Positions 4,332 through 20,653 of a DNA stretch of 64,000 nt are shown piece by piece. The stretch covers positions 1,317,983-1,381,982 of the forward strand of contig NZ_CP061296.1 of the NCBI RefSeq assembly GCF_018687555.1, written 5' to 3'. Source of the stretch: Polynucleobacter sp. MWH-P3-07-1. Its GTDB lineage: Bacteria > Pseudomonadota > Gammaproteobacteria > Burkholderiales > Burkholderiaceae. How positions within the stretch are numbered: position 1 is the first letter of the stretch; every line of letters begins with the position of its first letter. The translations under genes were made by a program, and so were the position numbers. The notes beneath the pieces are model-generated. The model worked only from the letters and a program-made list of their open reading frames with translations. It was not told where the DNA came from and made no database searches.

Positions 4332-4338
4332 AAGATCC

Positions 4339-5050: not shown

Positions 5051-5053
5051 AAA

Positions 5054-5176: not shown

Positions 5177-5254
5177 TACTACTGCTGGAAAGATCTGAGC
5201 ACTAACTACACACCGTCCCGCCACAAATATGCCAAAAAATCTTAGGAGATCTAA

Positions 5255-5560: not shown

Positions 5561-5757
5561 GTACATACGAATATGAACTAATCAAAATGGAGCCCGTATC
5601 ATCAGACATTGATACGGTGGAAAATATCCTTAATGAAAAGGGTGGTGAGGGGTTTCGTTTTGTGGCGGTACAAAAGTTTTGGACACAAGATGACTATGGA
5701 CAACCGATTCAGAGGAATTTCATAGTGCTTGAGAAAAAAGATGAGGAAGAACTATAA
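5557..5757 (+). CDS. DUF4177-like small protein
   Basis: 66 codons, start overlapping the preceding stop. The pattern YEYELI...ILNEKGGEGFRFVAV...NFIVLEKK fits the DUF4177 type: a short beta-alpha-beta protein with a central G-E-G-F/W segment. Function is unknown in all members I know of. It has no signal peptide although its upstream neighbours are secreted, so the operon mixes cytoplasmic and exported products. Confidence 0.7.
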   Translation: MSTYEYELIKMEPVSSDIDTVENILNEKGGEGFRFVAVQKFWTQDDYGQPIQRNFIVLEKKDEEEL

Positions 5758-5759
5758 GA

Positions 5760-6185: not shown

Positions 6186-6187
6186 GA

Positions 6188-6538: not shown

Positions 6539-6884
6539 TGCTTTCGCTTTCCACAAAATCTAGTTCATGAAAATTTATTTGCAGCTGCTCTGAGTCTATA
6601 AACTTATCATTAAGGTATCCGCTAGGCGGGGTTAAGCGTCTAAGATAAGTGTCAGGAACCGGACCAGATGTAAATGGTTTAAATTCTTCGCCTTCATATT
6701 GGTAGTACAAAAAGCTGCCTTCACTGGCTATCTCTACATTCCAGGTATAAACCAGCTCCTCATGATTTGCCCATTCCTCAAATCCAACGGCTGAAACTAT
6801 CTTCACGATATTGCCTAGATTTTTTGGATAACTACAATTCACGGTAATTGCTAAGTCACCAACTGAACAATTAAGTTTTCTCAT
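6531..6884 (-). CDS. Hypothetical protein, paralogue of the downstream gene
   Basis: 117 codons. It starts MRKLNCSVGDLAITV and ends in an acidic tail. The middle (NLGNIVKIVSAVGFEEW) and the PDTYLRRLTPPSG block match the product of the following gene. The start overlaps the upstream gene by four bases and the stop overlaps the downstream start. This makes a tightly coupled three-gene operon. Confidence 0.65.
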   Translation of the reverse strand: MRKLNCSVGDLAITVNCSYPKNLGNIVKIVSAVGFEEWANHEELVYTWNVEIASEGSFLYYQYEGEEFKPFTSGPVPDTYLRRLTPPSGYLNDKFIDSEQLQINFHELDFVESESNV

Positions 6885-7066
6885 CTTCTTCCCCTGTACT
6901 GCGCGCGCACCCTTTCACGCTCAACAAAAAATAGGTGCTCAATAAGTGGTTTGCCACAAACCATAAAAAGACCCAATAAAAAGATAGCAATCAACTTGGG
7001 GGTGTAATAACCCTGCTCAAAGTTGTAGCAACTCAAAAATATCAGTAAGAACCCTAAAAGCTTCAT
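6881..7066 (-). CDS. Small membrane protein, 61 residues
   Basis: The start at 7066 is chosen over 7120 because GGGAGG lies about ten bases ahead and because the site-4 promoter would begin transcription below 7098. Two hydrophobic stretches (residues 2-14 and about 22-42) predict one or two membrane helices, followed by a strongly basic tail (RERVRAQYRGRR). No family recognised. Confidence 0.55.
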   Translation of the reverse strand: MKLLGFLLIFLSCYNFEQGYYTPKLIAIFLLGLFMVCGKPLIEHLFFVERERVRAQYRGRR

Positions 7067-7097
7067 TTGGAGCACCTCCCTCTGGACATATATACGA

Positions 7098-7146
7098 AGA
7101 ATAAAGTGCCAGTAGCTCATTAAATGAGCTATAAAGAACTTATAGT
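7098..7146. promoter_or_regulatory. Bidirectional island palindrome promoter, site 4
   Basis: GCTCA at 7115-7119 and TGAGC at 7125-7129. Rightward -10 TATAGT (five of six) is at 7141-7146; leftward -10 TATTCT is read on the reverse strand at 7103-7098. Both hexamers begin 16 bases from the start of the facing TGAGC arm. It feeds the WYL operon to the right and the three-gene operon to the left. Confidence 0.6.
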
Positions 7147-7150
7147 TCTT
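7134..7150. promoter_or_regulatory. Perfect palindrome covering the rightward -10 of site 4
   Basis: Arms AAGAACT (7134-7140) and AGTTCTT (7144-7150) with a three-base centre. The -10 TATAGT lies inside it, so a bound protein would block transcription of the 7176/7638 operon. Autoregulation by the WYL protein encoded there is a natural hypothesis. Confidence 0.45.
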
Positions 7151-7175
7151 AAATGCAATTAATCCGGGAGGCTAA

Positions 7176-7616
7176 ATGGAAGGTGAGATCTTCGTCATAC
7201 CCAAATGGCAGGCGCATAACGTAGTCAATTTTGAGCAACTCGTAAAACTAGATAGTGGCGGAGGAAAAGTTTTAAATTTTGCATCCTGCGCATTAATAAA
7301 CACTATGCCTATGGTCGGTATCACCGAAATAACAGAGGAAACAAAGCGAGACCTATGGGTAAGAATCGCAATATTTCATGCCATGAATGGAAGTTTATTT
7401 TATTTTGAGCAGGAAGATAAAAAAACACCTGTATTTTTAACTCAACAGGATATTGATAGACATATAGGACTTAGCACCGAAGGTGCTAATTATTCATTTG
7501 TAGAATTTATTGACAGATGGGTAGCAAATAGAAATATTGAAGACGAAACCTCTTCAGCTAGGTGTGCAAACAACTTTAGGTCGATGCTAGATATCTGCCT
7601 TGCTAACAAAGCATAA
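7176..7616 (+). CDS. Hypothetical protein preceding the WYL regulator
   Basis: 146 codons with a strong ribosome-binding site (GGGAGG). The product is soluble, with no signal peptide, no obvious catalytic motif and no family I recognise. It is followed after 21 bases by the WYL regulator and shares its promoter, so it may be a partner or a target of that regulator. Confidence 0.65.
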   Translation: MEGEIFVIPKWQAHNVVNFEQLVKLDSGGGKVLNFASCALINTMPMVGITEITEETKRDLWVRIAIFHAMNGSLFYFEQEDKKTPVFLTQQDIDRHIGLSTEGANYSFVEFIDRWVANRNIEDETSSARCANNFRSMLDICLANKA

Positions 7617-7637
7617 TTCGTACGGGAAATAAAAAAT

Positions 7638-8609
7638 ATGAGCGATATTGAACGTTTACACCGCATTAAGTACATGATTCAGGATCGAAAATGCGTCCCT
7701 ATCGAAAGCTTCTTAGATGAGCTTGAAATCTCCAAAGCCACCTTTAAGCGTGATCTTGAATACCTACGTAGTCGACTTAAAGCATCAATCATTTATGACC
7801 GCTTTGAAGGAGGCTATAAATTTGAATTCCCAGACCAAGTTAACAAGATTGAAATGCCGGGTTTATGGTTCTCCGAAAAAGAAGCTACTGCTCTGGTCTT
7901 AATGCAGCACTTACTGTCATCTTTAGATCAAGGTGGATTAATTGGTCCTCATATTGAACCCTTAACCACAATCATCGATGGTATTTTGGGTCAAAGTGAA
8001 ACTTCCGCTAAAGAATTACGTAAGCGCATCAAAGTATTGGGCATGGGTTCACGTAAGAACTCGATTGATAACTTCTCTGAAATTGGCGCCGCCCTACTGA
8101 AGCGCAATCGTCTTGCGATCAAATACTATGCCAAGGGCAAGAATGAAGAAACTGAGCGTGAGATTTCTCCGCAACGACTCATTTTCTATCGCGAGAATTG
8201 GTATCTCGATGCCTATTGTCATATGCGCGAAGGCCTACGCAGCTTTGCTGTAGACGGCATCCGCAGTGCAGTACCGACTAACAAGAAAGCGCAAGAAATC
8301 TCCGATAAAGAGTGCCAAGAACACTTTGCCGAGAGCTACGGCATCTTCTCTGGCAAGGCTACACAAAGAGCAAAACTTCGTTTTACACCAGAACACGCTC
8401 GTTGGGTCTCGGGAGAAAACTGGCACGGCCAGCAAGTAGGCTCTTTTGATAAAGAGGGTTACTTCAATCTTGAGTTTGATTACAACCAAGATCCCGAGCT
8501 TGTGATGGACATCATGAAACATGGCTCTGGGGTTGAGGTGATTAGTCCTACTAGCCTTAAGAACAAAGTAAGAGCCGAATTAGAAAAAGCATTTAAGGCT
8601 TATCAATAA
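7638..8609 (+). CDS. WYL-domain transcriptional regulator
   Basis: 323 codons. Residues 1-60 form a winged helix (ISKATFKRDLEYLRSRLKA). The WYL domain spans about 145-210 and includes a literal W188-Y189-L190. A C-terminal domain with a characteristic EHARWVSGENWH segment follows. WYL regulators, such as the BrxR/CapW types, commonly control phage-defence islands by binding inverted repeats and sensing a nucleic-acid-like ligand; that is family knowledge. Here it sits a few kb from zorA and its own promoter carries two palindromes. Its 3' end abuts the oppositely oriented gene at 8610. Confidence 0.88.
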   Translation: MSDIERLHRIKYMIQDRKCVPIESFLDELEISKATFKRDLEYLRSRLKASIIYDRFEGGYKFEFPDQVNKIEMPGLWFSEKEATALVLMQHLLSSLDQGGLIGPHIEPLTTIIDGILGQSETSAKELRKRIKVLGMGSRKNSIDNFSEIGAALLKRNRLAIKYYAKGKNEETEREISPQRLIFYRENWYLDAYCHMREGLRSFAVDGIRSAVPTNKKAQEISDKECQEHFAESYGIFSGKATQRAKLRFTPEHARWVSGENWHGQQVGSFDKEGYFNLEFDYNQDPELVMDIMKHGSGVEVISPTSLKNKVRAELEKAFKAYQ

Positions 8610-9071
8610 TTATTGTTGCTTTAGTTTTTTATTGCACGCATCACAGTAATACTTGCCATCCTTTTCCCAGGCTTTAATACCAAGCTTCTTGGTACACCAG
8701 TAGCAATACAGATTGGTTGAAGGTATAAATTTACTTTCTGCCAAATCCGGCATACTTTGGATCAATTCCGGCTGACCAAGATTGACCTCAATGGCTTTAG
8801 GCTTTAACTGCGTAAGCATCCATCTCCAAGCTTTTGGGATAAGCTGGTAATGAAAGATCGCATAGCTTGAGGCCAACCCTAGCAATATGAGAACCACAGT
8901 TAGTGGATTTTGACTCATCCACTCTAAGACAGCTAGCGCTGCCATATAGGCAATGTAAAGGCCTAATATTGCCAATAGATATGGCCAAATCGCCGCTAGA
9001 ATCAAAATTGAAATAATGGTTCCAATAATTGATCCGCCACCAGAGCTATTGCTATCGTCGTAATCACCCAT
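8610..9071 (-). CDS. Membrane protein with C-terminal zinc-ribbon-like motif
   Basis: The frame is open from 9362, but the ATG at 9071 is chosen. AGGAG precedes it, the longer form would overlap the HD gene completely, and the HD stop (9064) overlaps this start by eight bases. 153 residues: an S/G linker, hydrophobic segments near 16-45 and 55-80, then a cytoplasmic tail with CYWC and CDAC pairs near the C-terminus. These four cysteines likely bind zinc. Function unknown; last gene of a four-gene operon starting at 10619. Confidence 0.65.
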   Translation of the reverse strand: MGDYDDSNSSGGGSIIGTIISILILAAIWPYLLAILGLYIAYMAALAVLEWMSQNPLTVVLILLGLASSYAIFHYQLIPKAWRWMLTQLKPKAIEVNLGQPELIQSMPDLAESKFIPSTNLYCYWCTKKLGIKAWEKDGKYYCDACNKKLKQQ

Positions 9072-9555
9072 GAGCTCTCCTGGGAAGCTGAGTACTCCAG
9101 TCATAGGCCAGATCGATAAAGATATTAGCTTCTTGAGATAAGTATTGGGGTGCAGGAAAAATTCCAACCCTCCCAAGATCCAATCGATCTGCGTCCCAAC
9201 AGGTCTGAATTGTTTTGTTAGCCGAGACATCACCACCTGAGTGATGGCGTAGTGCATAACAAAGCTCATCCAATTGCTTTGAGCGAAGTTGATAGAAGTC
9301 CCCGTGAATGCCATGCGCAAATTCTGCAGCACGTTCGCCATGTTTTGGATCTCTACCATCATCTAAGCGACAACTATCATGCAAGAATCCAAAGAGCTCG
9401 ACGACTAGTAAGTCTGCTTTGCGTAATTGCCCGATATTTTTACCGTGGTGAAGCACCCTAGCCCAATGGTTTGCGCCATGAATACCTTGCCAATCGAGCT
9501 TGAACTCAGACTTGATCAGAGCAATCAGACCTGAGCGGTCATAGTCTTTACTCAT
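9064..9555 (-). CDS. HD-domain phosphohydrolase
   Basis: 163 codons. The metal-binding HD set is visible: H30 (HGANHWARV), H59-D60 (FLHDS), H104/H105 (LRHHSGG) and D121 (CWDADRLDLGRVG). The length suits a single HD domain. Such enzymes hydrolyse phosphate esters of nucleotides; the substrate here is unknown. The start overlaps the upstream stop by four bases. Confidence 0.85.
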   Translation of the reverse strand: MSKDYDRSGLIALIKSEFKLDWQGIHGANHWARVLHHGKNIGQLRKADLLVVELFGFLHDSCRLDDGRDPKHGERAAEFAHGIHGDFYQLRSKQLDELCYALRHHSGGDVSANKTIQTCWDADRLDLGRVGIFPAPQYLSQEANIFIDLAYDWSTQLPRRAHG

Positions 9556-10265
9556 GAATAGAGTTTTTCTAAGCCAGAGGCTGCTAACTTAAACATCCGA
9601 TCCATTTCTGTTCCTGCAGATATGGCTGTGCCATCTGGGGTGGCGAGCGGCCAAGGCTGATTAAGATCCCAATATTGAGGAAATAACCAATGCTCTAACT
9701 CCACCTCAGAAATCGTCATGAGCCACTTCACATCCGGGTAAGAGCCACGAAGTAAGGCCAGCATATGGGCTTGCGAAAGACCCAAGGTCCACTCGTGCAA
9801 TTCTTGGTTAGTAGGCTCTCCAATGGGATGCTGCAACTTCAGACTCACAAATCCGTGCTCATTCGTTACCCATAGAAATGCATTCTGCTCATATCGATCT
9901 GCTAAGACCCTTGCATCGTCTAGATGTATACCTAAAGTGAGCATGCTTAGCTCATGAGGCCATTGGTCATCCTTATCTCGTCCTATTCCCGGAAATATTT
10001 TGGGGCACATTGGCAAAGCATCAGCCCACATCTTTTTTTGCCGCGCCTCATTCTCTTGAGTATCTAAGGGTTGGCTATAGGGATTAAAGGCAGTCAGAAA
10101 AGCTGCTGTTGTTATCTCCCACTCCGTCATCAACTCTGCCAATTGACTAGAAGCCTGGTTCACTTGCAGGGCGATTTCTCGATCACCAAGATGAACCACA
10201 TAGACCGCTTCGCGATAGGCCTTAATTAAATTTGGAGAAATTGTTCTGATCTCTAATTCGTCCAT
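9552..10265 (-). CDS. DUF3293-containing protein with extra C-terminal domain
   Basis: 237 codons. Residues about 15-125 follow the DUF3293 pattern (FLTAFNPYS, N, R, then P-x-E-x-S and a late NAFLWV). DUF3293 proteins are normally about this size or shorter. Residues about 140-237 add a segment with conserved W and P positions (WLMTISEVELEHWLFPQYWDL) that I cannot assign. It is coupled to the HD gene and follows the small gene at 10266 without a gap. Confidence 0.65.
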   Translation of the reverse strand: MDELEIRTISPNLIKAYREAVYVVHLGDREIALQVNQASSQLAELMTEWEITTAAFLTAFNPYSQPLDTQENEARQKKMWADALPMCPKIFPGIGRDKDDQWPHELSMLTLGIHLDDARVLADRYEQNAFLWVTNEHGFVSLKLQHPIGEPTNQELHEWTLGLSQAHMLALLRGSYPDVKWLMTISEVELEHWLFPQYWDLNQPWPLATPDGTAISAGTEMDRMFKLAASGLEKLYS

Positions 10266-10619
10266 TTATTTCCCCAATTCAAAAATATTGATCGGTGCTG
10301 CTGGTTTAGTTGGCCAGTGATAGCCAATTCCTAGCTCTTTTGCCTTTCGGATGCGGTGGTGCAACTTCAATGCGGAAGAAAAATAATAGAGGCGAGGGTT
10401 ACTTATAACGCGCTCATACTCATATTGCTCTGCCTGCACTGTCAAATCATCTACCCGATAAAAATATTTACCTTCATGTTCAATCGCTTCGGCAAAGTAA
10501 TTGTTTTCATCTTTGACAAACACAATCGGAATATAACGATCTCTAAAGACGTCTAGTAGTTTCTTCCACTTACTGTCGTTAAATTGATGTAAGCCAATTT
10601 TTAATTGCGTAATCTTCAT
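10266..10619 (-). CDS. Hypothetical protein, first gene of the HD operon
   Basis: The ATG at 10619 is chosen over 10640 because AGGAG lies nine bases ahead. 117 residues, basic and rich in Y, H and K, with no known domain. Its stop adjoins the next start. No island palindrome is found ahead of it, so this operon seems to be outside the palindrome set. Confidence 0.6.
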   Translation of the reverse strand: MKITQLKIGLHQFNDSKWKKLLDVFRDRYIPIVFVKDENNYFAEAIEHEGKYFYRVDDLTVQAEQYEYERVISNPRLYYFSSALKLHHRIRKAKELGIGYHWPTKPAAPINIFELGK

Positions 10620-10714
10620 TGCACTCTCCTGTTTAGCCAATTTGACAAATGTCTGGGCTTGGCAATTCGGTTTAAATCCGCCCTCCTACTTTTTTACCTC
10701 TACCGCTGATTCGC

Positions 10715-11077
10715 TTAGTGGATAACAGCCTCCACTACTTCAGGCTTTCCCTCGGGGTTCTTTTTTTGACTTGAAACCAAGAACTCTTTAGTCTCTAGTG
10801 CTACGGTGAGATAAGCGTCAGTTGCGATACGAAACGCATCTTGACCATCCTCTTTGCTAAAGATATAGGTCAGGCTATAGATGAGGTTGTCCGCATCCTC
10901 GCCGTCAACAGTGACGGTATTACCTACATCGTTATCTACAACCCGCAATCCTCTTGTGAAATCTGGCTTCTCACCATCAACCCAGCTCATATCGAGGCGA
11001 TCAATATCAAACCTCAAGCTTCGGAATAAGTTATTGATGGAAAAACGAGCACCATTTAAATATGTGTAATCACGCAT
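10715..11077 (-). CDS. Hypothetical protein
   Basis: 120 codons, acidic, single domain with an alternating V/T-rich stretch (GNTVTVDGEDADNLIYSLTYIF) and no recognisable family. It is transcribed from the promoter at 11116-11147, which carries a near-perfect island palindrome. A separate transcript is indicated because the gene below it starts at 10619. Confidence 0.6.
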   Translation of the reverse strand: MRDYTYLNGARFSINNLFRSLRFDIDRLDMSWVDGEKPDFTRGLRVVDNDVGNTVTVDGEDADNLIYSLTYIFSKEDGQDAFRIATDAYLTVALETKEFLVSSQKKNPEGKPEVVEAVIH

Positions 11078-11115
11078 AAGACCTCCAATATCAATTGATT
11101 AATCTCTACAATTCC

Positions 11116-11147
11116 ATTATCAAGATTGGCAGGTTCAAATAATGAGC
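11116..11147 (-). promoter_or_regulatory. Island palindrome promoter, site 6 (one mismatch)
   Basis: On the reverse strand GCTCA, five bases, TGAAC (11147-11133), then GATAAT (five of six matches) at 11121-11116, with the same 16-base spacing from the second arm to the -10. It lies 56 bases upstream of the ATG at 11077. Upstream flank CCACTA is identical to that of site 3. Confidence 0.5.
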
Positions 11148-11176
11148 TAGTGGTCAGTTTTTGAGCCACTTGTCCA

Positions 11177-11343
11177 ACAAAAAACCCACCAAATGGTGGG
11201 TTTGTCGCTTTTGATTACCTTTTACCTTGCTTGGTATTGGGTCTCATCTTTTTAGCACCTTACTAGCGTTAGCAGGTTGCTGTGGCGACAAAGCCATCTC
11301 TTGATGTTTGTTTGATTATAAAGACCTTGCAGTCATTTGTAAA
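11177..11343 (-). ncRNA. Small transcription unit with near-consensus promoter and terminator
   Basis: On the reverse strand, TTTACA (11343-11338), a 17-base spacer and a perfect TATAAT (11320-11315) form the best sigma-70 promoter seen in the island. Transcription from about 11308 would end at the terminator near 11177, giving about 130 nt. It contains only two minute frames: 17 codons at 11297-11244 (MALSPQQPANASKVLKR) and a 10-codon frame overlapping its stop. Neither has a well-spaced ribosome-binding site. A small RNA or a leader peptide are both possible. Confidence 0.45.
11178..11203 (-). terminator. Intrinsic terminator of the small unit
   Basis: Stem AAACCCACCA (11182-11191) with TGGTGGGTTT (11194-11203); read on the reverse strand it is followed by a run of six T. 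Confidence 0.75.
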
Positions 11344-11364
11344 TAAGTTCTAGGAGCCATGGGC

Positions 11365-12534
11365 TCAAAATTGGCTTAACCATTGCTCAAGCATAGAGAC
11401 ATCAGCAATGCCTTTTGAAATTAGCAGCTGTGAAATATCTATGGCGGATATTATTAACAGCGGATGTCCATCCTCAATAATTTCTTTATAAGCCTGGAGA
11501 GATACAAATGATGTAGTAATAAAAATACCAAATTGCCTATGTCTTAGACGTGAAATTAATCGCGAGGTTTCCTTAACGCCACAACTCGATGTCAACTTAT
11601 AACACTTAGCTTCAAGAGCAAACTCTACATCTGTGTAAGCCTGACCTACACCTATTCTATAAACTCCGATAGCATCTCTACCGCCGTCTCTCCATGGCCT
11701 TGTGTTATCACAAGAGATAATATTTTTATCCATCATTTGTGCAATTACCGAAGCACACTTCTCAAATGAATACTCGCCATCCTTATGTTTAGAAAAGTAA
11801 TCTTTGATTAACTCTATATACTTTTTCTCTTGTGACGTTTGTGGCAATTGTTGCTCAGGGGTTCGATAACTAACAGTCGGCGGCGCTAATAACGGAAGGT
11901 ACTTGCCAGTATTGAGCCACTTTAAATAGGTGTCCGGGGCATTTCTTGTAGCACTACCGTTTTGGAGTTCGCTTATCCAGCCCCTTTTAATAACCGACTC
12001 ATTCAAAATGGTAAAAATTGCGCGATAGTTTTGAAACCTATTGCCATCTACTGATTTCCATATAGCCACTAGATCATCAGTTTGTAAGATATTTGCAGCA
12101 CCAGGAACAGCCAGGCCACGGAAAACTACAGAGCGACCAGCACCTCCGACCTTTGTAAATATAAAAAATGGAGGAACTTTATCTCTTTGTAATGAGTGCA
12201 AGTTATCAAAAGAATTTTTTAATATTAAATTTCCTTTTTTGCTAGTGTCATGCAGCTCATGCCCAGCTTTTTTGTTGTCTCCAAAATAAATGAACTGTCC
12301 TCTTTCAGAATTCAATTCATCTGGCCACTCATTGTTTGACATTTCGGAATATAGGACGCAGTACTTAAGGTCTCCTAGAGTGCCTTTTTGACGAAATCCA
12401 CCCTGATTTCCACATCCCATTAATTTAGAAATTGGATCGTCACCAGCATTGCCGGAATTGCCACCTTCATAGATAGCGTCAATAACTAAATCTGCATTTT
12501 CAAGTTCGTCAAATTTGAATAGTTTGGCTGTCAT
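11365..12534 (-). CDS. AspBHI-like modification-dependent restriction endonuclease
   Basis: 389 residues from the ATG at 12534; a TTG nine bases upstream is in frame. The N-terminal half (GGNSGNAGDDPISKLMG, later FGDNKKAGHELHDT) resembles the DNA-recognition domain of AspBHI, a 5-methylcytosine-dependent enzyme of the MspJI group. The C-terminal Mrr-type catalytic domain shows D287, then E308-x-K310 (EAK), and a following (S/T)FV helix region. If correct, it cuts DNA carrying methylated cytosine. Its start faces that of the Eco47II-type gene across 95 bases. A conventional Mrr-like type II enzyme is the alternative. Confidence 0.7.
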   Translation of the reverse strand: MTAKLFKFDELENADLVIDAIYEGGNSGNAGDDPISKLMGCGNQGGFRQKGTLGDLKYCVLYSEMSNNEWPDELNSERGQFIYFGDNKKAGHELHDTSKKGNLILKNSFDNLHSLQRDKVPPFFIFTKVGGAGRSVVFRGLAVPGAANILQTDDLVAIWKSVDGNRFQNYRAIFTILNESVIKRGWISELQNGSATRNAPDTYLKWLNTGKYLPLLAPPTVSYRTPEQQLPQTSQEKKYIELIKDYFSKHKDGEYSFEKCASVIAQMMDKNIISCDNTRPWRDGGRDAIGVYRIGVGQAYTDVEFALEAKCYKLTSSCGVKETSRLISRLRHRQFGIFITTSFVSLQAYKEIIEDGHPLLIISAIDISQLLISKGIADVSMLEQWLSQF

Positions 12535-12577
12535 ATATTTCAAATTGTGTAATTTTAGTAATTAATATACCTCTTCT

Positions 12578-12597
12578 GTCTATGCATGGGTTACCAT
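12578..12597 (+). promoter_or_regulatory. 20-bp element shared with the methyltransferase promoter
   Basis: GTCTATGCATGGGTTACCAT lies 33 bases before the endonuclease ATG. A copy with 18 of 20 matches lies at 14564-14583 just upstream of the methyltransferase gene. The core CTATGCAT-N-GGTTACCAT is shared. It is a likely operator for coordinated control of the restriction-modification pair, perhaps bound by the MerR-like domain of the methyltransferase. Confidence 0.55.
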
Positions 12598-12629
12598 TCT
12601 TTTGGGCATTATTAATTTTGGAGAATTTC

Positions 12630-13382
12630 ATGGCATATGTCAGCTTTATCAAGGATGAAGATTTTAAGAAAATCATAGGTGAAATTCTTGTCATTGCTGC
12701 CCAATCAAAAAAGAAGGCTGATACTAAATTTAATAGAAATGTCATTGATCCATTTTCTGTATTGATTGAAATCGGTGGGTTTGATATTGACTTTGATACA
12801 TGGGTTATCAGCGAAAAGACTCGGCAAGCTCAAAAGTCCCTATCTAACCATGTGGGCTTATTGCATCAAAAATTACTAGGCTCCATAGAGGGCTGGACTG
12901 ATCTTGGCGTAGGACAGTTAATTGATGTTGTAAATCCTCAGAAAAAAATAATTGCGGAAATCAAAAACAAACACAACACCATCAAGGGTGCAGACAAAAT
13001 CGGACTATATAAAGAATTAGATAATTTAGTGATGATGAAAGGTCACCAATATAAGGACTTTACCGCCTACTATGTTGAGATAGTCCCAAAAAAAGCTGAT
13101 AGATATAATATTTGCTTCACCCCATCCGATAAGAGCAAGGGAAATAAATGCTCTCCAAATGAAAAAGTAAGGCAAATCGACGGCGCCAGCTTTTATGCTT
13201 TAGTCACTGGCATTGATGATGCCCTAGAGCAAATATTCCGCGCGTTACCTCAAGTAATAAAAGATTGCAAAGCTGATGCAAAAATGATTGGGGCTGAAAA
13301 GGCGACTGAATTTTTTAAATCAGCTTATGTTCCAAAACCACTAAAGACTTCTCGTCGTACGAGTTCGAAAGCATCGCAATAA
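12630..13382 (+). CDS. Eco47II-family type II restriction endonuclease
   Basis: 250 residues. The ATG at 12630 is chosen over one at 12582 because GGAG precedes it, and because the extra 16 residues would be encoded within the shared operator. The protein matches my memory of the Eco47II/Sau96I-like family (recognition GGNCC). It shows a PD-(D/E)xK centre: D99 (QLIDVVNP), E110 and K112 (IAEIKNKHNT). It converges on the methyltransferase gene and overlaps it tail-to-tail by 68 bases. Specificity is a family inference. Confidence 0.85.
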   Translation: MAYVSFIKDEDFKKIIGEILVIAAQSKKKADTKFNRNVIDPFSVLIEIGGFDIDFDTWVISEKTRQAQKSLSNHVGLLHQKLLGSIEGWTDLGVGQLIDVVNPQKKIIAEIKNKHNTIKGADKIGLYKELDNLVMMKGHQYKDFTAYYVEIVPKKADRYNICFTPSDKSKGNKCSPNEKVRQIDGASFYALVTGIDDALEQIFRALPQVIKDCKADAKMIGAEKATEFFKSAYVPKPLKTSRRTSSKASQ

Positions 13383-14547
13383 TAGCTCTTCCAATATGGT
13401 AGCCAAGATTTACTGGCACCGCATTTCCTATTTGCTTATACTGCGACGCTGTTGATCCAGAAAATGCCCATTCATCAGGAAACGACTGAATACGGGCATA
13501 CTCCCGAACATTTAATGGTCTCGTTTCACCAGGGTGACATCTCTCGGTTTGCTTTTGCGCAGGATTACAAGTCAGTGTCAACGATGGCTCATCCCAAGAT
13601 AGCCTCCTAGCCATACCGGTTTTTCCGCCCCCCAAATAGAAGCTCGCTCCCATGTATTTTTTCTGCAAAGGTAATGGTAGGTCACGCCAATATCCTCCAG
13701 GCGGGATCAATTCCATAATTTTCTTTTTTTCGGGTGTATATTTTTGACCTTCAGCTTTTGGAGCACCTTTTAATGCCTCACGTATGCCAACCGTATAGTT
13801 CTGTTCTTTGGGAAAGGCAATAGCACGTTTTAGATCTTTTCTAACGCCCAAAATAACTAAACGTTCTCTCTTTTGAGCTACATCAAAATACTGAGCACGC
13901 AAAATTTTGTAGGAAACATCGTACCCAAGCTCATCAAGGACATTGAGCATAGTCTCGAGAGTACGCCCGTTATCATGACGCTCGAGCCCCTTTACATTCT
14001 CTCCAAGTATTACTTTGGGCTTTATTTCTTTAACCGCTCTAGCGTATTCAAAGAATAAAGTCCCTCTTGTATCCTCAAAGCCCATTCTCTTACCAGCATA
14101 ACTAAATGCTTGACAAGGAAACCCTCCAGCAACTACATCCGCTTTGATCTTTTTAAAATCTACATTAGCAATATCATCATCAACTACATTCCACTTTGGA
14201 CGATTCGTCCTCAGTGTCTCGACTGCTTTTTTATCTATCTCAACCAACAAATTGCAATCTAGCCCAGCATTTTCCATTCCTAGCGCTAAACCACCAGCAC
14301 CAGCAAATAATTCAACAACAGAAAATGGGGATTTTTTCTTCGCCTTTAATACTTTGTAGCCAACATCCCCGCTACCACCATTTTTGGCAATCAGCCTATC
14401 CAACTCTTTTTTATCAAAATATCTATGGCCATTTGCCGCCCTATGCGCCTTGATTAACCCCTTCTTTTCCCAGCGCCGGATTGTGTCAAGCGATACGGCC
14501 AACTTCTCGCTTGCATCAGAGATAGAGATATGTGTAGCTGAATTCAT
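13315..14547 (-). CDS. DNA (cytosine-5) methyltransferase with N-terminal MerR-type helix-turn-helix
   Basis: 410 residues. Residues 5-55 form a MerR/excisionase-type winged helix (ISDASEKLAVSLDTIRRWEKKG, then GHRYFDKKELDRL; shown in parts). The catalytic domain has motif I FAGAGG (81-86), motif IV PCQ with nucleophile C145, motif VI ENV (183-185), motif VIII QKRER (225-229), a target-recognition region with GGYWRDLP, and motif X GNAVP. This type methylates GGNCC, protecting against the neighbouring enzyme. N-terminal regulator domains are known in some 5mC methyltransferases (Xre-like ones); a MerR-like one is less usual and suggests autoregulation. Confidence 0.92.
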   Translation of the reverse strand: MNSATHISISDASEKLAVSLDTIRRWEKKGLIKAHRAANGHRYFDKKELDRLIAKNGGSGDVGYKVLKAKKKSPFSVVELFAGAGGLALGMENAGLDCNLLVEIDKKAVETLRTNRPKWNVVDDDIANVDFKKIKADVVAGGFPCQAFSYAGKRMGFEDTRGTLFFEYARAVKEIKPKVILGENVKGLERHDNGRTLETMLNVLDELGYDVSYKILRAQYFDVAQKRERLVILGVRKDLKRAIAFPKEQNYTVGIREALKGAPKAEGQKYTPEKKKIMELIPPGGYWRDLPLPLQKKYMGASFYLGGGKTGMARRLSWDEPSLTLTCNPAQKQTERCHPGETRPLNVREYARIQSFPDEWAFSGSTASQYKQIGNAVPVNLGYHIGRAIIAMLSNSYDEKSLVVLEHKLI

Positions 14548-14553
14548 TTAACT

Positions 14554-14609
14554 GGTAACCTTTGCCTATGCATTGGTTACCATAATACATTCTTTTTAAC
14601 ATTTTTCAA
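14554..14609 (-). promoter_or_regulatory. Methyltransferase promoter with inverted-repeat operator
   Basis: On the reverse strand TTGAAA (14609-14604), 16 bases, TATTAT (14587-14582). An inverted repeat GGTAACC (14554-14560) / GGTTACC (14575-14581) spans the predicted start of transcription, and one arm belongs to the 20-bp element shared with the endonuclease promoter. A protein bound here would repress. Confidence 0.55.
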
Positions 14610-14710
14610 AATTGAAAGATAAGACAATCCCACCAGCATTAGTAGCGTTAAACCATTGAAGTTATTGATAAATTCCATTTAAGATTCCAAATTAAAGTTA
14701 TTGAGATCTT
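14610..14710. other. AT-rich intergenic stretch without a gene
   Basis: Between the methyltransferase promoter and site 5 I see only AT-rich sequence and short frames of no quality. It would be the 5' leader of the site-5 transcript. Confidence 0.5.
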
Positions 14711-14742
14711 AGAATAAGTAACTTAAAGCTCACACAATGAGC
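14711..14742 (-). promoter_or_regulatory. Island palindrome promoter, site 5, inside a 14-bp perfect stem
   Basis: GCTCA (14728-14732), five bases, TGAGC (14738-14742). On the reverse strand a -10 TATTCT at 14716-14711 keeps the 16-base spacing. The palindrome extends to 14 perfect pairs (14719-14732 with 14738-14751), so it could also fold as a transcript hairpin behind the gene ending at 14765. Transcription from here would enter the methyltransferase gene through a leader of about 160 bases. Confidence 0.4.
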
Positions 14743-14764
14743 TTTAAGTTATATTGGGAAATTA

Positions 14765-14947
14765 TTAGCTCTTAACCCTCCGATTTCTTTGCTCAAACTC
14801 TATAGCTTCTTGTAGCAAAGCTCGTTGCTTATCTGCCTCCTGTTTGGCCAATCTATCGCGCTCAATAAGTTTCTTGCCCGTGATGACCTGTTGGTCATTT
14901 AGCAAAGAATCTAACGTAGGCTTACTCTTCCCAGGGGAATCTTTCAC
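14765..14947 (-). CDS. Small coiled-coil-like protein behind the integrase
   Basis: 60 codons from a GTG at 14947 that overlaps the preceding gene by 26 bases. Rich in K, E, Q and R (ERDRLAKQEADKQRALLQEA), predicted to be one long helix. Function unknown. It is coupled to the gene at 14922, which follows the integrase. Confidence 0.45.
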   Translation of the reverse strand: MKDSPGKSKPTLDSLLNDQQVITGKKLIERDRLAKQEADKQRALLQEAIEFEQRNRRVKS

Positions 14948-15131
14948 GAGTCATTTCTTCCATGATTTCACGCTTGCTAAGAGCGGCCTTCCTTTGACTA
15001 TTGGTACCGTACCTTTTCCAGCGCTCAGTATCAGCCTTAATTAGCTCTTGCTCTTTCTTGGCGTCTTCCTCCAGCGAGGTTAGCTTCTGAGGATTCATTT
15101 TTCCTACAGGTTCAAGATTATCGATGCTCAT
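14922..15131 (-). CDS. Small charged helical protein behind the integrase
   Basis: 69 codons, strongly charged (K, E, R), mostly helical, with no named family. It starts at 15131 just beyond a 23-bp palindrome that also occurs before the integrase. Like its overlapping partner it could be an excisionase-like or accessory factor of the mobile element, but no helix-turn-helix is evident. Confidence 0.45.
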   Translation of the reverse strand: MSIDNLEPVGKMNPQKLTSLEEDAKKEQELIKADTERWKRYGTNSQRKAALSKREIMEEMTRERFPWEE

Positions 15132-15142
15132 TTTAATATTCT

Positions 15143-15165
15143 AAGCGTTACTTAAAGTAACGCTT
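15143..15165. repeat. 23-bp palindrome, copy 1 (downstream of the integrase gene)
   Basis: Arms AAGCGTTACTT (15143-15153) and AAGTAACGCTT (15155-15165) around a single A: a perfect inverted repeat. An almost identical copy lies at 16654-16676 on the other side of the integrase gene. Confidence 0.8.
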
Positions 15166-15174
15166 ATAACTAGC

Positions 15175-16527
15175 CTACGCTGCCCGCCGCTCTTGTTCAG
15201 CCCGCTTCTTACTTGGATAGTTATCCGCAGCCTTACTATCAGCCTCAATGAGCTTTCTAGTATTAGCGCCGCGCAATTGCTCAATAGCCTGTATTACCTG
15301 TAAGTGACTATAGTGCCGCTCTATCATTAATACGCTAGTACCCATCTGCTTGGCTAAGGTATGAATAGGCACCATATCGTGAGTAAGTGCTAAGGTGGCA
15401 TAGGTATGGCGTAGGCTATAGAACACCCGCTTTTGATTAGTCTTGGGATCAATAAGTAACCCATGGTCTGCTAAAAAACCATCAAACATGTGATTAAGCA
15501 CATCACTTAAATCCCTGCCTTCTTTGGTTCTAAAGATGTAGTCGTCATTAGTAGGTTTAATGAGTTCAGCCAATGGATCTTTAGTTGAGCTAGCAACCCC
15601 ATAGTTTCGCAAGGCAATGCGCTCTAAAACTCTAATACTGGGTAAGCGTCCAATTATCTGTCTTTGTCCTGTTTTGCCTTTAACTGTCATTTCGCAGCTA
15701 CGGTTAAGGCTGTGCACTTCAATAACTTCGCCTTCTTCATCGATTTGGTCTGTTACAGTACTAATGGGGTTCATCATGAAACGAATTTGCTTCCATTTCA
15801 TATCTAAGAGCTCAATGCCTGGTCTTGCGCCGGTATCCACCAGCATCTCCACATAATCTCGCAGGATTTCTCGGCGTTCACGAACATCTTTAGTTCTGCC
15901 TGAGTCTATGTATGGGCCTAGAAGTTTTAATAAAGCTCTAAGCTCATGAAGCTCAAATGCTGGGCGACGCACACTCTCTTTAGTCTTGCCATCTAGCTTA
16001 GGACGATTGCTCTCAGTTAAATAACCCCGAACGATGGCTTCATCAAAAACTCTATTAAATGCAGCATTTTGGGTTTTACGATTACTGTTAGACATTGCCA
16101 AGCCATACCTAGCTTCACGATCATCGTAGTACTGCTGCAGGGCGTCGTAGTCAATATTGGTAATGAGTCTTTGCCCAAGAGTGGAGATGAAATTTTCATT
16201 AATAATACGGATGTAGTCTTTGTAGATTGATTTACCTAGGCCGCCTTTTAAATCCCGCTCCATGCGATCAATAGCCAACATAGCAATATCTTTAAAGCGC
16301 TTGGTCACTACTGGGATGCCAGAGCGTTTACGAATCTCTGCTTCCACTAAAAGCTCTTTGGCTTTATTGACCGCCAAGTCAAGCTGGGTTTCTTTGGTAG
16401 TTGCTCGTATCCACTTGTTATCTACCTTATAGCGGCATTGCCATACGGCACTATGCTCGCGTTGATAGAGGGTTAGGTTACGGTGTATGAGTTGATGTGT
16501 ACTTTCTTTTTTAATTGCCATACACAT
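15175..16527 (-). CDS. Tyrosine recombinase (phage/island integrase)
   Basis: 450 residues from the ATG at 16527; a second ATG six bases later is equally plausible, and neither has a good ribosome-binding site. An N-terminal SAM-like core-binding region (about 75-175) precedes the catalytic domain with R235 (TGARPGIELLDMKW), R373-H374 (YSLRHTYAT) and nucleophile Y406 (IERHYSHLQ). The usual histidine of the HxxR box is tyrosine (Y370), as in some island integrases. It lies about 1.1 kb from the interrupted tRNA gene, the likely integration site. Confidence 0.92.
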   Translation of the reverse strand: MCMAIKKESTHQLIHRNLTLYQREHSAVWQCRYKVDNKWIRATTKETQLDLAVNKAKELLVEAEIRKRSGIPVVTKRFKDIAMLAIDRMERDLKGGLGKSIYKDYIRIINENFISTLGQRLITNIDYDALQQYYDDREARYGLAMSNSNRKTQNAAFNRVFDEAIVRGYLTESNRPKLDGKTKESVRRPAFELHELRALLKLLGPYIDSGRTKDVRERREILRDYVEMLVDTGARPGIELLDMKWKQIRFMMNPISTVTDQIDEEGEVIEVHSLNRSCEMTVKGKTGQRQIIGRLPSIRVLERIALRNYGVASSTKDPLAELIKPTNDDYIFRTKEGRDLSDVLNHMFDGFLADHGLLIDPKTNQKRVFYSLRHTYATLALTHDMVPIHTLAKQMGTSVLMIERHYSHLQVIQAIEQLRGANTRKLIEADSKAADNYPSKKRAEQERRAA

Positions 16528-16674
16528 ACTTTAGCTTCTGACCACCAGCTAGGACAACCTAATTGGAGGAATTACTGGGGGCAATTTAGCCAAAATAAAG
16601 AGTGGCTATGAGTGGTGATTCATGGGGGAGTTTTTGAAGTATTGCGCGGGGATGAGCGTTACTTTAAGTAACGT
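16528..16674. other. Integrase upstream region
   Basis: About 150 bases with no gene. It includes the second copy of the 23-bp palindrome at its right end and presumably the integrase promoter; no clear -35/-10 pair is seen. Confidence 0.4.
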
Positions 16675-16676
16675 TT
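16654..16676. repeat. 23-bp palindrome, copy 2 (upstream of the integrase gene)
   Basis: Arms AGCGTTACTT (16655-16664) and AAGTAACGTTT (16666-16676) around a T. It matches copy 1 except near the outer ends and the centre. It overlaps the last codons of the HEPN-type gene at 16675, so it may also act as a transcript hairpin. Confidence 0.7.
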
Positions 16677-17085
16677 AATGACCCAGTTTCATTTCAATCA
16701 AAAAGTATCTAGCTAACTCTTGGTTAAGCTGTCGAACCCAATCTACAACATCTTTACCATTTTGATATAAATCCGTAAATCGAGCATCGTTATACGTTTT
16801 TTGGTAATGAAATACACCATTTCGGTACCTTCTAAGCAACTCAAGATTATCGGATTTAAGTAACTCATTAATTTGATCATCCTTTAACTTAAGCTCTCTC
16901 CATCCATCTGCAACTAAATACATAGTTGCGTACCAATATCCCATGTACATAAATGCATCCATACCATTGCTGCCATCTTGCGTTACAGAATATTTGAGCG
17001 TTTCATCAAAATTTTGGCGCATCTTATTTGCCCAGATGAAGTATCGATGTAAGGAAAGAAGCTTTTCTTTTGAAGCTAGAGTCAT
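16675..17085 (-). CDS. HEPN-like small protein (second of a pair)
   Basis: 136 codons, almost wholly helical. It carries R88-N-x3-H93 (RYRNGVFHY), the Rx4-6H signature of HEPN RNases, in the expected C-terminal helix. The stop overlaps the palindrome at 16654-16676. It starts 18 bases after the preceding HEPN-type gene. Many HEPN proteins are toxins or abortive-infection effectors; that is family knowledge, and activity here is inferred. Confidence 0.65.
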   Translation of the reverse strand: MTLASKEKLLSLHRYFIWANKMRQNFDETLKYSVTQDGSNGMDAFMYMGYWYATMYLVADGWRELKLKDDQINELLKSDNLELLRRYRNGVFHYQKTYNDARFTDLYQNGKDVVDWVRQLNQELARYFLIEMKLGH

Positions 17086-17102
17086 AAAAATACCATTCCG
17101 AA

Positions 17103-17585
17103 CTATAAAGATTGATCGCTGATTTTTTTCTGGTCTCTTATGTGCTGAGCTAGTCTAAACATTGAGACCATATTGAGAGGTGCTAATAATGAATATAAAT
17201 CATTGGCTAAATCATATAACTCAGCAGAATCAGCTTTTCTTTCCGGCATTCCTGGCCTAGCTGGTTTTAATATATCCACCGACCCGGGAACTGCATAGAT
17301 TCTTCCGTGAATAATTTCATTCCTCTTCTCCATGAGATTTTTTACGTAATCTAAATATTGATCAAATCCTTGAAATTGACCTCCAAGCAAATTTTTTTCT
17401 TTAAGCCAGTCTTTAATAAACTTAATTTGCTTGCTAACTTGCTGTTTGAGAATGTTGTCATCAGCAGTTGAATCGCTTGCTAGGATGACTTTTATAACCT
17501 CCTCAATTGCCTCTTCTACGTAAGCTGCATACACTGCCACATATCCGACACCATGGATTAAGTCACCATCATTTTTAACTGGCAT
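17103..17585 (-). CDS. HEPN-like small protein (first of a pair)
   Basis: 160 codons, helical, with R88-N-E-I-I-H93 (EKRNEIIHGR), again the HEPN Rx4H motif. The N-terminal part resembles the small-molecule-sensing type of helical bundle with repeated I/V and E. It is the first gene inside the tRNA boundary, reads away from it, and forms a two-gene operon with 16675. Neither gene looks like a MazE- or MNT-type antitoxin, so a classic HEPN/MNT pair is not supported. Confidence 0.65.
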   Translation of the reverse strand: MPVKNDGDLIHGVGYVAVYAAYVEEAIEEVIKVILASDSTADDNILKQQVSKQIKFIKDWLKEKNLLGGQFQGFDQYLDYVKNLMEKRNEIIHGRIYAVPGSVDILKPARPGMPERKADSAELYDLANDLYSLLAPLNMVSMFRLAQHIRDQKKISDQSL

Positions 17586-17632
17586 GTTTAAATCCTTAAA
17601 TATGTAGTTAGATTCTAGATCTCAAAAGACAA

Positions 17633-17660
17633 AAACCCCCATCATTACTGATGGGGGTTT
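17633..17660. terminator. Bidirectional intrinsic terminator behind the tRNA gene
   Basis: Perfect 12-bp stem AAACCCCCATCA (17633-17644) with TGATGGGGGTTT (17649-17660) and a TTAC loop. On the reverse strand it is followed by TTTTTGTCTTTT, ending the tRNA transcript eight bases after its CCA. Confidence 0.85.
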
Positions 17661-17667
17661 GCTTTTC

Positions 17668-17956
17668 TGGTGGGCCCACCAGGACTTGAACCTGGGACCA
17701 AAGGATTCCGGTTTGTGTAGCTTTCACTACTCCCTGGACTATGCCTTCATCATATCGATTGCTCGACTTAGATGGGTGCCGTCTAGTCTCTACACGTTCA
17801 AAGTATTTCTACTAAGCTTCGCTCGGCGTTAGCTTGTGCAGCTTTTGGCTACATTTAGCTTTCTCCGAATTTGACACCATCCCTTATGCAGTTTCCACGC
17901 ATAAGGCACAACTTTCGCTATGAGTCCTCTGCTCTAACCAACTGAGCTATGGGCCC
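17668..17956 (-). tRNA. ileX: tRNA-Ile(CAU) interrupted by a group I intron
   Basis: Exons 17956-17920 (37 nt) and 17707-17668 (40 nt) join to a 77-nt tRNA with encoded CCA. The acceptor arms GGGCCCA and TGGGCCC pair fully. The anticodon loop is CTCATAA and the T arm CCAGG-TTCAAGT-CCTGG. The CAU anticodon with the E. coli tRNA-Ile2-like body (TTTGGTC, TTCAAGTCC) indicates the isoleucine isoacceptor whose C34 becomes lysidine to read AUA, not a methionine tRNA. The intron splits the loop right after the anticodon. If this is the only AUA-reading tRNA, splicing is essential for growth. Confidence 0.93.
17708..17919 (-). ncRNA. Self-splicing group I intron (IC3, Azoarcus type), 212 nt
   Basis: It begins after CAU of the anticodon. 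P1 is formed by exon CAU plus AGC with the guide GUUGUG, closed by a GAAA loop (the terminal U of the exon faces G, the conserved U-G pair). P2 has the arms CCTTATGC and GCATAAGG. The strings GATGGTGTC, AACGCCGAGC, GAGACTAGACGGCACC and CATAGTCCAGGGAGT match my memory of the 205-nt Azoarcus tRNA-Ile intron almost letter for letter in the core. The 3' end ...ACAAACCGG gives the terminal omega-G. There is no open reading frame, so it depends on self-splicing. Confidence 0.92.
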
Positions 17957-17968
17957 TAAATCGTTACT

Positions 17969-18073
17969 TTTACTACACACCTTACTGCTGGTGTTTACCA
18001 CTGCAAAACCACACTAAAACCGCATTTACTACACACCTCGGTTTTTGCTTCGGTGTGTAAGCGGTGTGTAAGC
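17969..18073. repeat. Short repeats resembling integrase arm-binding sites
   Basis: TTTACTACACACC occurs at 17969-17981 and 18025-18037. GGTGTGTAAGC occurs twice in tandem in opposite orientation at 18052-18062 and 18063-18073. All four share ACACACC/GGTGTGT. Short direct and inverted repeats next to a truncated tRNA are typical of an attachment site used by a tyrosine integrase. No gene lies in 17957-18202. Confidence 0.5.
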
Positions 18074-18149
18074 AATTTTGACCACCTAATTCACCACTAA
18101 CCTCTTGAATCTATTGAGGTCTTTGTTACAAGACCCCTTGGGCTTCTTT

Positions 18150-18189
18150 CTTATGAGTCCTCTGCTCTAACCAACTGAGCTATGGGCTC
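18150..18189 (-). pseudogene. Truncated tRNA-Ile(CAU) copy without the intron (5' half)
   Basis: Reverse strand GAGCCCATAGCTC... runs through the anticodon loop CTCATAA and then departs (AAGAAG). 36 bases (18152-18187) are identical to the intact tRNA 5' exon, and position 2 is A instead of G. It continues as an uninterrupted CATAA, so this copy never held the intron or lost it. It breaks just after the anticodon loop, the usual crossover region for tRNA-targeting integrases. It is probably the remnant of the host gene beside rpoD. Confidence 0.85.
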
Positions 18190-18202: not shown

Positions 18203-20653
18203 TCAATCTTCCTCTAGGAAAGTTTTGAGCTTGTCACTACGACTTGGATGACGCATTTTACGGAGTGCTTTTGCTTCGATCTGACGTATACGCTCTCGGG
18301 TGACATCGAATTGCTTGCCCACTTCTTCAAGGGTGTGATCTGTACTCATCTCCACACCAAAGCGCATACGCAATACTTTTGCTTCGCGAGGTGTGAGTGA
18401 GTCCAAGACATCCTTAACGACATCGCGCATGGAGTCATGCAAAGCTGCCTCTGCTGGCGCCAAGGTATTCGAGTCTTCAATAAAGTCACCCAAATGAGAG
18501 TCTTCATCGTCACCAATTGGAGTCTCCATAGAGATAGGCTCTTTAGCGATCTTCATGATCTTGCGAATCTTATCTTCCGGAATCTCCATCTTGAGCGCTA
18601 AGGTTGCCGCATCCGGCTCATGACCAGTCTCTTGCAAGATCTGACGGCTGATGCGGTTCATCTTATTGATAGTCTCAATCATATGGACTGGGATACGAAT
18701 CGTGCGGGCTTGGTCAGCAATAGAGCGAGTAATAGCTTGACGGATCCACCAAGTTGCATAAGTGGAGAACTTATAACCACGACGGTATTCAAACTTATCT
18801 ACCGCCTTCATCAAACCAATATTGCCTTCTTGGATCAAATCCAAGAACTGCAATCCGCGATTAGTGTATTTCTTGGCAATAGAGATCACCAAACGCAAGT
18901 TCGCCACGGTCATTTCACGCTTCGCTTCACGGGCACGCTTCTCGCCAGCGATCATCTGCTTGTTGACTTCTTTCAACTCAAGAAGTGGCAGAACCACACG
19001 AGTCTGAATATCAATCAGCTTCTGTTGCAACTCTTGAATCGCTGGAACGTTACGCTCCAAGAGAGCTGAGTAAGGCTTATTTTCTTTGAGTAATTTAGCG
19101 GTCCAGCCCAAGTTCATTGACATCTTAGGGAACTCTTTTAAGACTTCACCGCGGTTTACGCCGACTTTATCGACCAACAGACTCACAATACCGCGCTCGA
19201 GTTTCCAGACCTGGTCTACTTGCGAGCGCATGGTGTCGCATAACTTCTCAACACTTTTTGCAGTCAAGCGGAAACCTAACAACTCATTGCGAATGTTTTC
19301 TTGAGCCTTAAGGTAAGCAGGGCAGTTATAGCCATCTTTGTCAAAAGCTCTGCGCATTTTGTCAGCTTGAACACGAACTACTGCAAATTTTTCGAGCGAG
19401 ATTTGCTTGAGCTCTTCGAGCTGCTTCGCATTCGCTGTAGCAGCACCTCCGCCACCACCGCCCTCTTCGCCTTCACCGCCCTCTTCGCCTTCTTCAGCAT
19501 CAGGATCAATCTCAGGCTCTTCAGGTCCCAACTTAATATCTTCAGCATTAGGATCAACCAAACCATCCACAAACTGATCAATTTCCATTTCACCAGAAGC
19601 AATCTTGGCAGCGTTATCCAAGATCTCAGCAATAGTTACTGGGCAGGCAGACAAAGCCATCACCATGTCTTTTAAGCCAGCCTCAATCTTTTTGGCAATG
19701 ACAATCTCACCCTCACGCGTCAAGAGATCAACTGTACCCATTTCACGCATGTACATGCGCACGGGATCGGTAGTACGGCCAAACTCAGAATCCACTGTGG
19801 ATAAAGCGGCCTCGGCTTCTTCCTCTGCCTCTTCTTCTGAGGTGGCTGCAGCAGTGTTCTCACTTAGGAGCAATGTTTCTGCATCAGGCGCTTGCTCGTA
19901 AACAGTAATGCCAATGTCATTCAATAAACCAATCAAAGTCTCTAATGCATCCGCATCAGACAACTCATCTGACATTACGTCATTCATCTCACCATGGGTT
20001 AAGTAACCCTTAGATTTACCCATCTTGATCAATGTCTTCAAGCGGGCACGACGGAGTTCTTGTTGCTCTTCAGAACCCAACTGCTGCGCAGCGAATTCTT
20101 TTAAGAGGGCTTTTTCTTTTGCTTTGCGCTCACGGGCTTTTTGGCGATCGGTCAGAACAACCTCACCACTCTCAACTGGCGCAACTTCAGCTTTTGGCTT
20201 ACGGCCGCGTGTTTTCTTTTCCTCGACTACCTCAACTACGGGCAACAACGCTTCTTTTGCTTTTTTACCCTTAGCAACTGGCTCTGGCTTTGCGACAACC
20301 TTGGCGACTTTGGCCGGTACTACCTTAGCGACTTTCGCAGGCGCTTTTACTGCCGCCTTAGCGACAGGCTTAGCAGCTGGCTTTGCGGTAGGCTTAGCTA
20401 CTGGCTTTGCGGCCACCTTCTTAGCGACTGGCTTCGCTTTAACTGCGACTTTCTTGGCAACCGGTTTCTTAGCGACTGGCTTCGCTTTGACTGCGACTTT
20501 CTTGGCAACCGGTTTCTTAGCTACTGGCTTCGCTTTGACTGCGACTTTCTTGGCAACCGGTTTCTTGACTGCTACTTTTGCTGGTACTTTTTTCGCAGCA
20601 GGTTTTTTAGCAACGGCTTTAACGGCGGGTTTTTTTGTCTTGGTAGTTGGCAT
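18203..20653 (-). CDS. rpoD: RNA polymerase sigma-70 factor RpoD with long Lys/Ala-rich N-terminal region
   Basis: 816 residues. Region 1.1, region 1.2 ([14 protein letters not shown]), a non-conserved acidic insert with an E/G run, region 2 ([27 protein letters not shown]), region 3, and region 4 ([20 protein letters not shown]) are in order. The first 150 residues are unusual: mostly K, A, V and P with a 16-residue unit repeated, resembling histone H1-like tails. Typical RpoD proteins start near region 1.1. It is the last gene of the rpsU-yqeY-dnaG-rpoD cluster, 223 bases after dnaG. Confidence 0.97.
20418..20561 (-). repeat. Three 48-bp tandem repeats in the rpoD N-terminal region
   Basis: Units start at 20418, 20466 and 20514 on the plus strand and encode a 16-residue K/V/A/P unit. 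They differ by only one or two bases each, so the array is recent and likely length-variable. Confidence 0.85.

Follow-up and report, generated by a model that had tools for sequence, protein, structure and literature searches.

Why should the only tRNA through which a genome can be expected to decode AUA be interrupted by a group I intron, and why should it lie at the very end of an integrated island? This question is raised by a 64,000-nt stretch of the genome of Polynucleobacter sp. MWH-P3-07-1 (contig NZ_CP061296.1, positions 1,317,983 to 1,381,982; hereafter the window), in which a sequence-only reading had pointed out an intron-bearing tRNA-Ile(CAU) gene.

The tRNA-Ile(CAU) gene and its group I intron

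Based on tRNA typing and Rfam, the gene occupies 289 nt on the minus strand (17668-17956). Its 5' exon (17920-17956, minus strand) comprises tRNA positions 1-37 with the anticodon CAU at its end, and its 3' exon (17668-17707, minus strand) comprises positions 38-77, including an encoded CCA. The exons add up to 77 nt and, once spliced, give a regular cloverleaf with CAU. The remaining 212 nt had been described as an insertion directly after the anticodon, and those coordinates proved exact to the base. ARAGORN called no tRNA in the window, because the group I intron splits the gene.

The 38 remaining tRNAs of the genome were typed as well. CAU occurs in two more, which by sequence are the initiator and the elongator tRNA-Met, and this count bears out the earlier suspicion that the intron interrupts the only AUA-decoding tRNA. 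The gene is confirmed as the sole tRNA-Ile(CAU) of the genome, in which tilS was also found. Since this sole copy has an intron, AUA decoding would, by established decoding rules, need splicing. A scan for sigma-70 consensus promoters just upstream of the tRNA found nothing, and its transcription is assumed.

The intron (17708-17919, minus strand) begins with AGCGAAAG and ends in the terminal G that the sequence-only reading had named. In the covariance search, the Rfam model Intron_gpI (RF00028) matched 17932-17715 (minus strand) with 51.4 bits against a gathering score of 50 (E 3.8e-10), a significant score that upholds the group I assignment; it was the only such match in the 1.71-Mb single-contig genome. 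The P1 hairpin is CAUAGC-GAAA-GUUGUG, so that the anticodon itself forms the 5' splice-site helix, as had been proposed. This hairpin is kept in almost all related introns, with a variable loop and extension, and the peripheral helices also vary among relatives, in agreement with the earlier description. Across 12 diverse relatives, 91.6% of cells in the named structure (P2-P9 and the P3/P7 pseudoknot) were paired, and 72 cells were double-compensated, compared with 19 ± 4 after shuffling and 5-11 when the partners were slid. All helices form; compensatory changes were found in P2, P5, P5a, P6, P7, P8, P9 and P9.0, and P3 was invariant. The excess of double-compensated cells over the controls indicates selection on the intron fold. 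Judged from sequence, splicing in vivo appears strongly supported.

The closest counterpart is probably the group I (IC3) intron in the pre-tRNA-Ile(CAU) of Azoarcus sp. BH72. We take the two to share the host tRNA, the site after CAU, a P1 built with the anticodon, the core, the terminal G and a length of about 205 nt in Azoarcus, and to differ in P5a, P6a and P8a and in that the Polynucleobacter gene is the rescue copy of an island. Same-position introns from the Azoarcus neighborhood (L074, Rhodocyclaceae, and L108, Uliginosibacterium) are ~79% identical. Assignment to an Azoarcus type is best read as probable, on the grounds of tRNA, position and core, the Rfam model making no subgroup split. 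Introns of this type in tRNA-Ile(CAU) are already known from Azoarcus (review PMC3984707). The 212-nt intron itself is of a known kind, and the novelty lies in its setting. Related group I introns were also observed in another tRNA, in an anticodon loop around TTTGT, in Alphaproteobacteria (L057, L070, L103, L117 and others; Roseobacteraceae, Paracoccaceae).

A 32.6-kb island that splits the original tRNA-Ile gene

The sequence-only reading had mentioned an island boundary in passing. The tRNA does lie at one, and both junctions could be mapped exactly. The island is 32,582 bp long and sits in the anticodon loop of an original, intronless tRNA-Ile gene next to rpoD (18203-20653). Between rpoD and the intron-bearing gene lies the orphan 5' half of this original gene (18152-18187, minus strand; tRNA positions 3-38), a perfect 36-nt copy that ends in CTCATA and is preceded by a decayed position 2 (GAGCCCA). 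The intronless 3' half (positions 33-77, 100%) was located at C1:1303508-1303552, 14.5 kb to the left of the window. The two orphan halves overlap in exactly CTCATA, the integration core, of which the right-hand copy is at 18152-18157 (minus strand) and the left copy at C1:1303547-1303552, outside the window; the joined flanks give an intronless tRNA-Ile(CAU) with a decayed second base. Hence, the island was inserted inside the original anticodon loop. The host's own tRNA-Ile was intronless and is now broken; the intron-bearing one is part of the island. The integration site and the split host gene are established, as are the sole copy described above and the conserved intron-bearing rescue module described below.

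The right part of the island fills positions 1-18151 of the window and the remainder extends to the left of it (C1:1303553-1317982). Its attachment site is represented at the right end by the P' arm (17957-18151, minus strand), which starts with AGAAAGAAGCCC and in which the motifs TTTACTACACACCT and CGGTGTGTAAG recur, probably as sites of the arm type for the integrase. At the left end, the P arm (TTGCTTACACA repeats, then on to GGGCTTCTGCT) is joined to the original intronless 3' half. In stacked elements of relatives the fused arms read GGGCTTCTGCT-CTCATAA-GAAAGAAGCCC. This is what attP should look like, and it contains a nearly perfect inverted repeat. The host site is AGAGCAGAGGA-CTCATAA-TCCTTTGGTCC, that is, the anticodon stem-loop. 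Identity between attP and attB is limited to CTCATAA. As the shared core spans only 6-7 bp, the tRNA is not rebuilt at either junction.

A tyrosine integrase of 450 aa is encoded at 15175-16527 (minus strand; phrog_1 E 1e-31, no match in Pfam), and a second, shorter tyrosine integrase lies close to the left end of the island. The cargo of the region C1:1303508-1336134 is mostly anti-phage defense, with a type I Zorya system, an Eco47II-type restriction-modification system, an AspBHI-like enzyme and a WYL regulator. In the window, zorA (2-673, minus strand) continues beyond the edge, with zorB, zorC and zorD to its left; the AspBHI-like methyl-directed restriction enzyme is at 11365-12543 (minus strand); and the stretch 12582-14547 holds the Eco47II-type restriction enzyme (12582-13382, plus strand) and a C5 methyltransferase (13315-14547, minus strand). 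The island further contains a SAM-I/IV riboswitch (11201-11312, minus strand, 61.5 bits) upstream of an unannotated 120-aa frame (10715-11077, minus strand).

Probable rescue tRNAs in Polynucleobacter and other bacteria

Among 111 genomes of the genus, 47 have a P' arm like that of the present island and 32 have the P arm. In the loci read, a complete tRNA-Ile follows ~200 nt past the P' arm. Of the 59 such rescue tRNAs that could be typed, 53 had an intron and the other 6 were intronless; the intron was mostly of the after-CAU type, and a few had a second group I intron elsewhere in the anticodon loop. We examined the rpoD site in 32 complete genomes selected independently of introns or arms. 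Where the orphan 5' half was present (n = 15), the complete gene was intron-bearing in 12 genomes and intronless in 3; where it was absent (n = 17), the numbers were 1 and 16, respectively (Fisher p 3e-5). Integrases beside arms of the P'a type in relatives were 94-97% identical to the 450-aa integrase of the island; identity fell to 66% and 37% for those beside two further types of arm. Integrase identity thus follows arm type, which indicates that the two move as a unit, and each type was seen with the intron-bearing gene.

Arms without a tRNA (P'x) were never found on a broken tRNA (0 of 13), in comparison with 41 of 59 tRNA-carrying arms (p 3e-6). Such a distribution would be expected if a host whose gene is broken dies unless it has a rescue copy, and it speaks indirectly for function of the intron-bearing gene in vivo. 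The P'x arms themselves (CTCATAACCAGAGAACC; L258, L260, L274, L277, L222 and others) were located behind the arm of another element or in an unclassified context. Taken as a whole, it is very probable that the intron-bearing gene is the island's rescue tRNA and a conserved module.

Several loci carry a different intron, of 245-251 nt, inserted before the anticodon (ACU|CAU) in a gene that occupies the same place as the one with the after-CAU intron. Three of these were scanned with Rfam and matched the group I model with E 3e-5 to 2e-4, under the gathering score. One locus (L017, 182-378, Polynucleobacter HJF.22, on a contig shared with L099) is a chimera whose 5' part is of the after-CAU type and whose 3' part is of the before-CAU type, and its splice sites, as written, are mutually mismatched.

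Loci outside the genus were taken from public matches to the intron-core pattern. Among the matches listed, the intron-bearing gene had a second copy of the 5' half 160-350 nt upstream in 10 of 14 Methylophilaceae, 3 of 4 Comamonadaceae, 2 of 4 Oxalobacteraceae and 1 of 2 Sterolibacteriaceae, and in none of 3 Rhodocyclaceae. The layout that recurs among these matches in other betaproteobacterial families has different arm sequences. There, the host copy usually continues as CTCATAATC before it diverges, so that the shared core spans the intron insertion point in those families.

Searches of plasmid and phage collections returned no relative of the whole gene, and only half-tRNA and short intron-core matches. 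A 38-nt 5' half of tRNA-Ile(CAU), 95-97% identical, was observed in temperate phages of Pseudomonas and Moraxella (phi3, L353, and Mcat4, L354), and in phi3 it adjoins the integrase; these phages probably target the same tRNA by the classical half-gene solution. Some IMG/VR contigs classed as viral (L176-L186) have intron-bearing tRNA-Ile(CAU) genes, some apparently beside further tRNA genes, and phages may therefore carry such genes too.

The role of the intron and known systems

In the mechanism that we propose, a tyrosine integrase would have recombined attP with the CTCATA(A) within the anticodon loop of the intronless tRNA-Ile(CAU) beside rpoD, and the 5' and 3' halves of the host gene would have ended up 32.6 kb apart. 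Survival of the host would depend on the complete tRNA-Ile(CAU) that the island has about 230 bp inside its end. Judging from the conservation of the intron, the transcript would self-splice to the same mature 77-nt tRNA, with modification by TilS as the next step. In DNA, the inverted repeat of the anticodon stem would have its two arms pushed apart by the intron, which would also change the end of the core, and for these reasons the rescue gene should be a poor target. A poor target would keep the integrase from recombining the island's tRNA with attL or attR, and would keep later islands of the same specificity from breaking the only remaining copy. A functional tRNA could in this way be encoded by DNA without an intact integration site. 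The seventh core base before the intron is changed here (CTCATAG, not CTCATAA), but CTCATAA precedes the intron in some relatives. As this mismatch is not general, the argument for a poor target also draws on the disruption of the right arm.

The integrations found in relatives bear on such protection. Where the junction was recognizable, 28 intronless and 2 intron-bearing complete tRNAs had been split (26-27 and 2, respectively, after clustering of near-identical flanks), compared with 19 intronless and 13 intron-bearing complete genes standing at the rpoD site in the 32 genomes, a comparison that is confounded, since the intronless state is ancestral and has been exposed for longer, and in which relatedness was treated crudely. 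Where an element was already in place, newcomers had entered at an old att junction in 18 cases and at the intron-bearing tRNA in two (p 0.02 if three sites are taken to be used equally). The two intron-bearing tRNAs split at CTCATA are L249/G007 and L264/G110; in one of them, position 7 holds the base found in attP (CTCATAACG), which true strand exchange predicts. Five fragments consisting of intron and 3' half (G022, G086, G099, G104 and G097) were considered as further splits and rejected, being truncated introns fused to coding sequence with no att junction, and were kept out of the count. With two splits at CTCATA and five decayed fragments, protection is not absolute, and a strict rule that the intron gives immunity was discarded on account of the two split genes. 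Intronless rescue tRNAs also persist in six cases. On these counts, the tentative reading that the intron protects the tRNA from integration is favored, and we give it somewhat less than even weight. We grade with the same reserve the broader idea that group I introns of bacterial tRNAs can act as integration-site immunity, the att site being split in DNA and the intron spliced from RNA, such that an essential rescue tRNA would not readily be cut by its own or rival integrases. If true, part of the Azoarcus-type introns would gain a function and a route of spread.

The intron could instead be a passive passenger with no role in the island, if an ancestral island took up a tRNA-Ile with an intron of the kind common in Betaproteobacteria, and we regard this as only a little short of an even prospect. 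It would account for intron-bearing tRNA-Ile genes that have no second 5' half close by in Rhodocyclaceae, Zoogloeaceae, Neisseriaceae and others, and for those rescue tRNAs that are intronless. Against it, the same slot is filled by two different introns at two positions, both of which split the anticodon loop, and this makes pure accident less likely; moreover, the intron is carried by several arm families and intron-bearing genes are rarely split. Independent spread of the intron through homing or reverse splicing, with the island as an incidental location, is very unlikely. Its sporadic occurrence in the genus, the differing peripheral helices and the mixture of both intron types in L017 would fit, but a homing endonuclease gene would not fit into 212 nt, and at the rpoD site the intron tracks the broken 5' half (12:3 with it, 1:16 without).

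Two further readings concern the gene as a whole. An ordinary tRNA-targeted island, in which an identity block rebuilds the tRNA and the intron merely came along, seems highly improbable. One genome (G002) does have an intact intronless tRNA with a displaced 3' half, and the 38-nt 5' half is present in three temperate phages (phi3, Mcat4 and Mcat5); yet both junctions of the island are non-functional halves, the complete gene lies 230 bp inside, and only CTCATAA is common to attP and attB. For the present island, this Islander-type reading is refuted by the two orphan halves and the lack of an intact tRNA at the junctions. That the intron-bearing copy is a decayed remnant, with AUA decoded otherwise, is barely credible: we found no point in its support, and the gene is the sole tRNA-Ile(CAU) of a complete genome that has tilS, with intact exons and an intron rich in compensatory changes.

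Group I introns of bacterial tRNAs are usually regarded as near-neutral passengers. The present one is a conserved component of the rescue gene of a mobile element, in a genus where a single locus occurs in intronless, intron-bearing, broken and stacked forms. Owing to the setting of an intron-bearing rescue tRNA, standard tools call neither the tRNA nor a proper island at this locus. The literature that we searched for group I introns together with tRNA-targeted islands, with subscription papers mostly outside its scope, did not report the combination, which is therefore new as far as checked.

Introns in archaeal tRNAs need protein splicing enzymes. In Caldiarchaeum, a tRNA-Thr intron was gained from a mobile element (PMC3293823), and that article cites the idea of Randau and Soll that tRNA introns protect from integration in archaea. 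Both cases have an intron brought by an element into a tRNA att site, an adjacent orphan 5' half and a proposed block to integration. Unlike the one in Caldiarchaeum, the Polynucleobacter intron is of the presumably self-splicing group I type, bacterial and present at many loci, and the idea of tRNA introns as guards, argued so far from archaea, becomes directly testable in bacteria. Anticodon-centered att sites are a recognized class among tRNA-targeted islands (Islander, PMC4383910), with which the present island shares a tyrosine integrase, a crossover in the anticodon loop and a displaced tRNA fragment at the far end. Islander islands restore their target via an identity block, whereas the Polynucleobacter island brings a whole gene instead.

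Our system most likely works like the tRNA-dependent lysogeny of mycobacteriophages and actinophages, in which, according to Guerrero-Bustamante and Hatfull (2024, PMC10865867), an element-borne tRNA replaces the host's after non-restoring integration. The common features are a tyrosine integrase, a short core in a tRNA gene, junctions without a rebuilt tRNA and a complete replacement tRNA of the same isotype on the element, and all of these features of tRNA-dependent integration were found in the island, with its target left unrestored. The status of the island's tRNA as the sole genome copy and the absence of tRNA-less arms from broken tRNAs (0 of 13) bear indirectly on the need for this tRNA in survival. 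The Polynucleobacter case differs in that it concerns islands with defense cargo in Betaproteobacteria and in that the replacement tRNA is intron-bearing, a kind of tRNA not mentioned in the accessible text of PMC10865867. The discussion there raises how common tRNA-dependent lysogeny is elsewhere, and the present locus extends tRNA-dependent integration from actinophages to defense-carrying islands of common freshwater bacteria.
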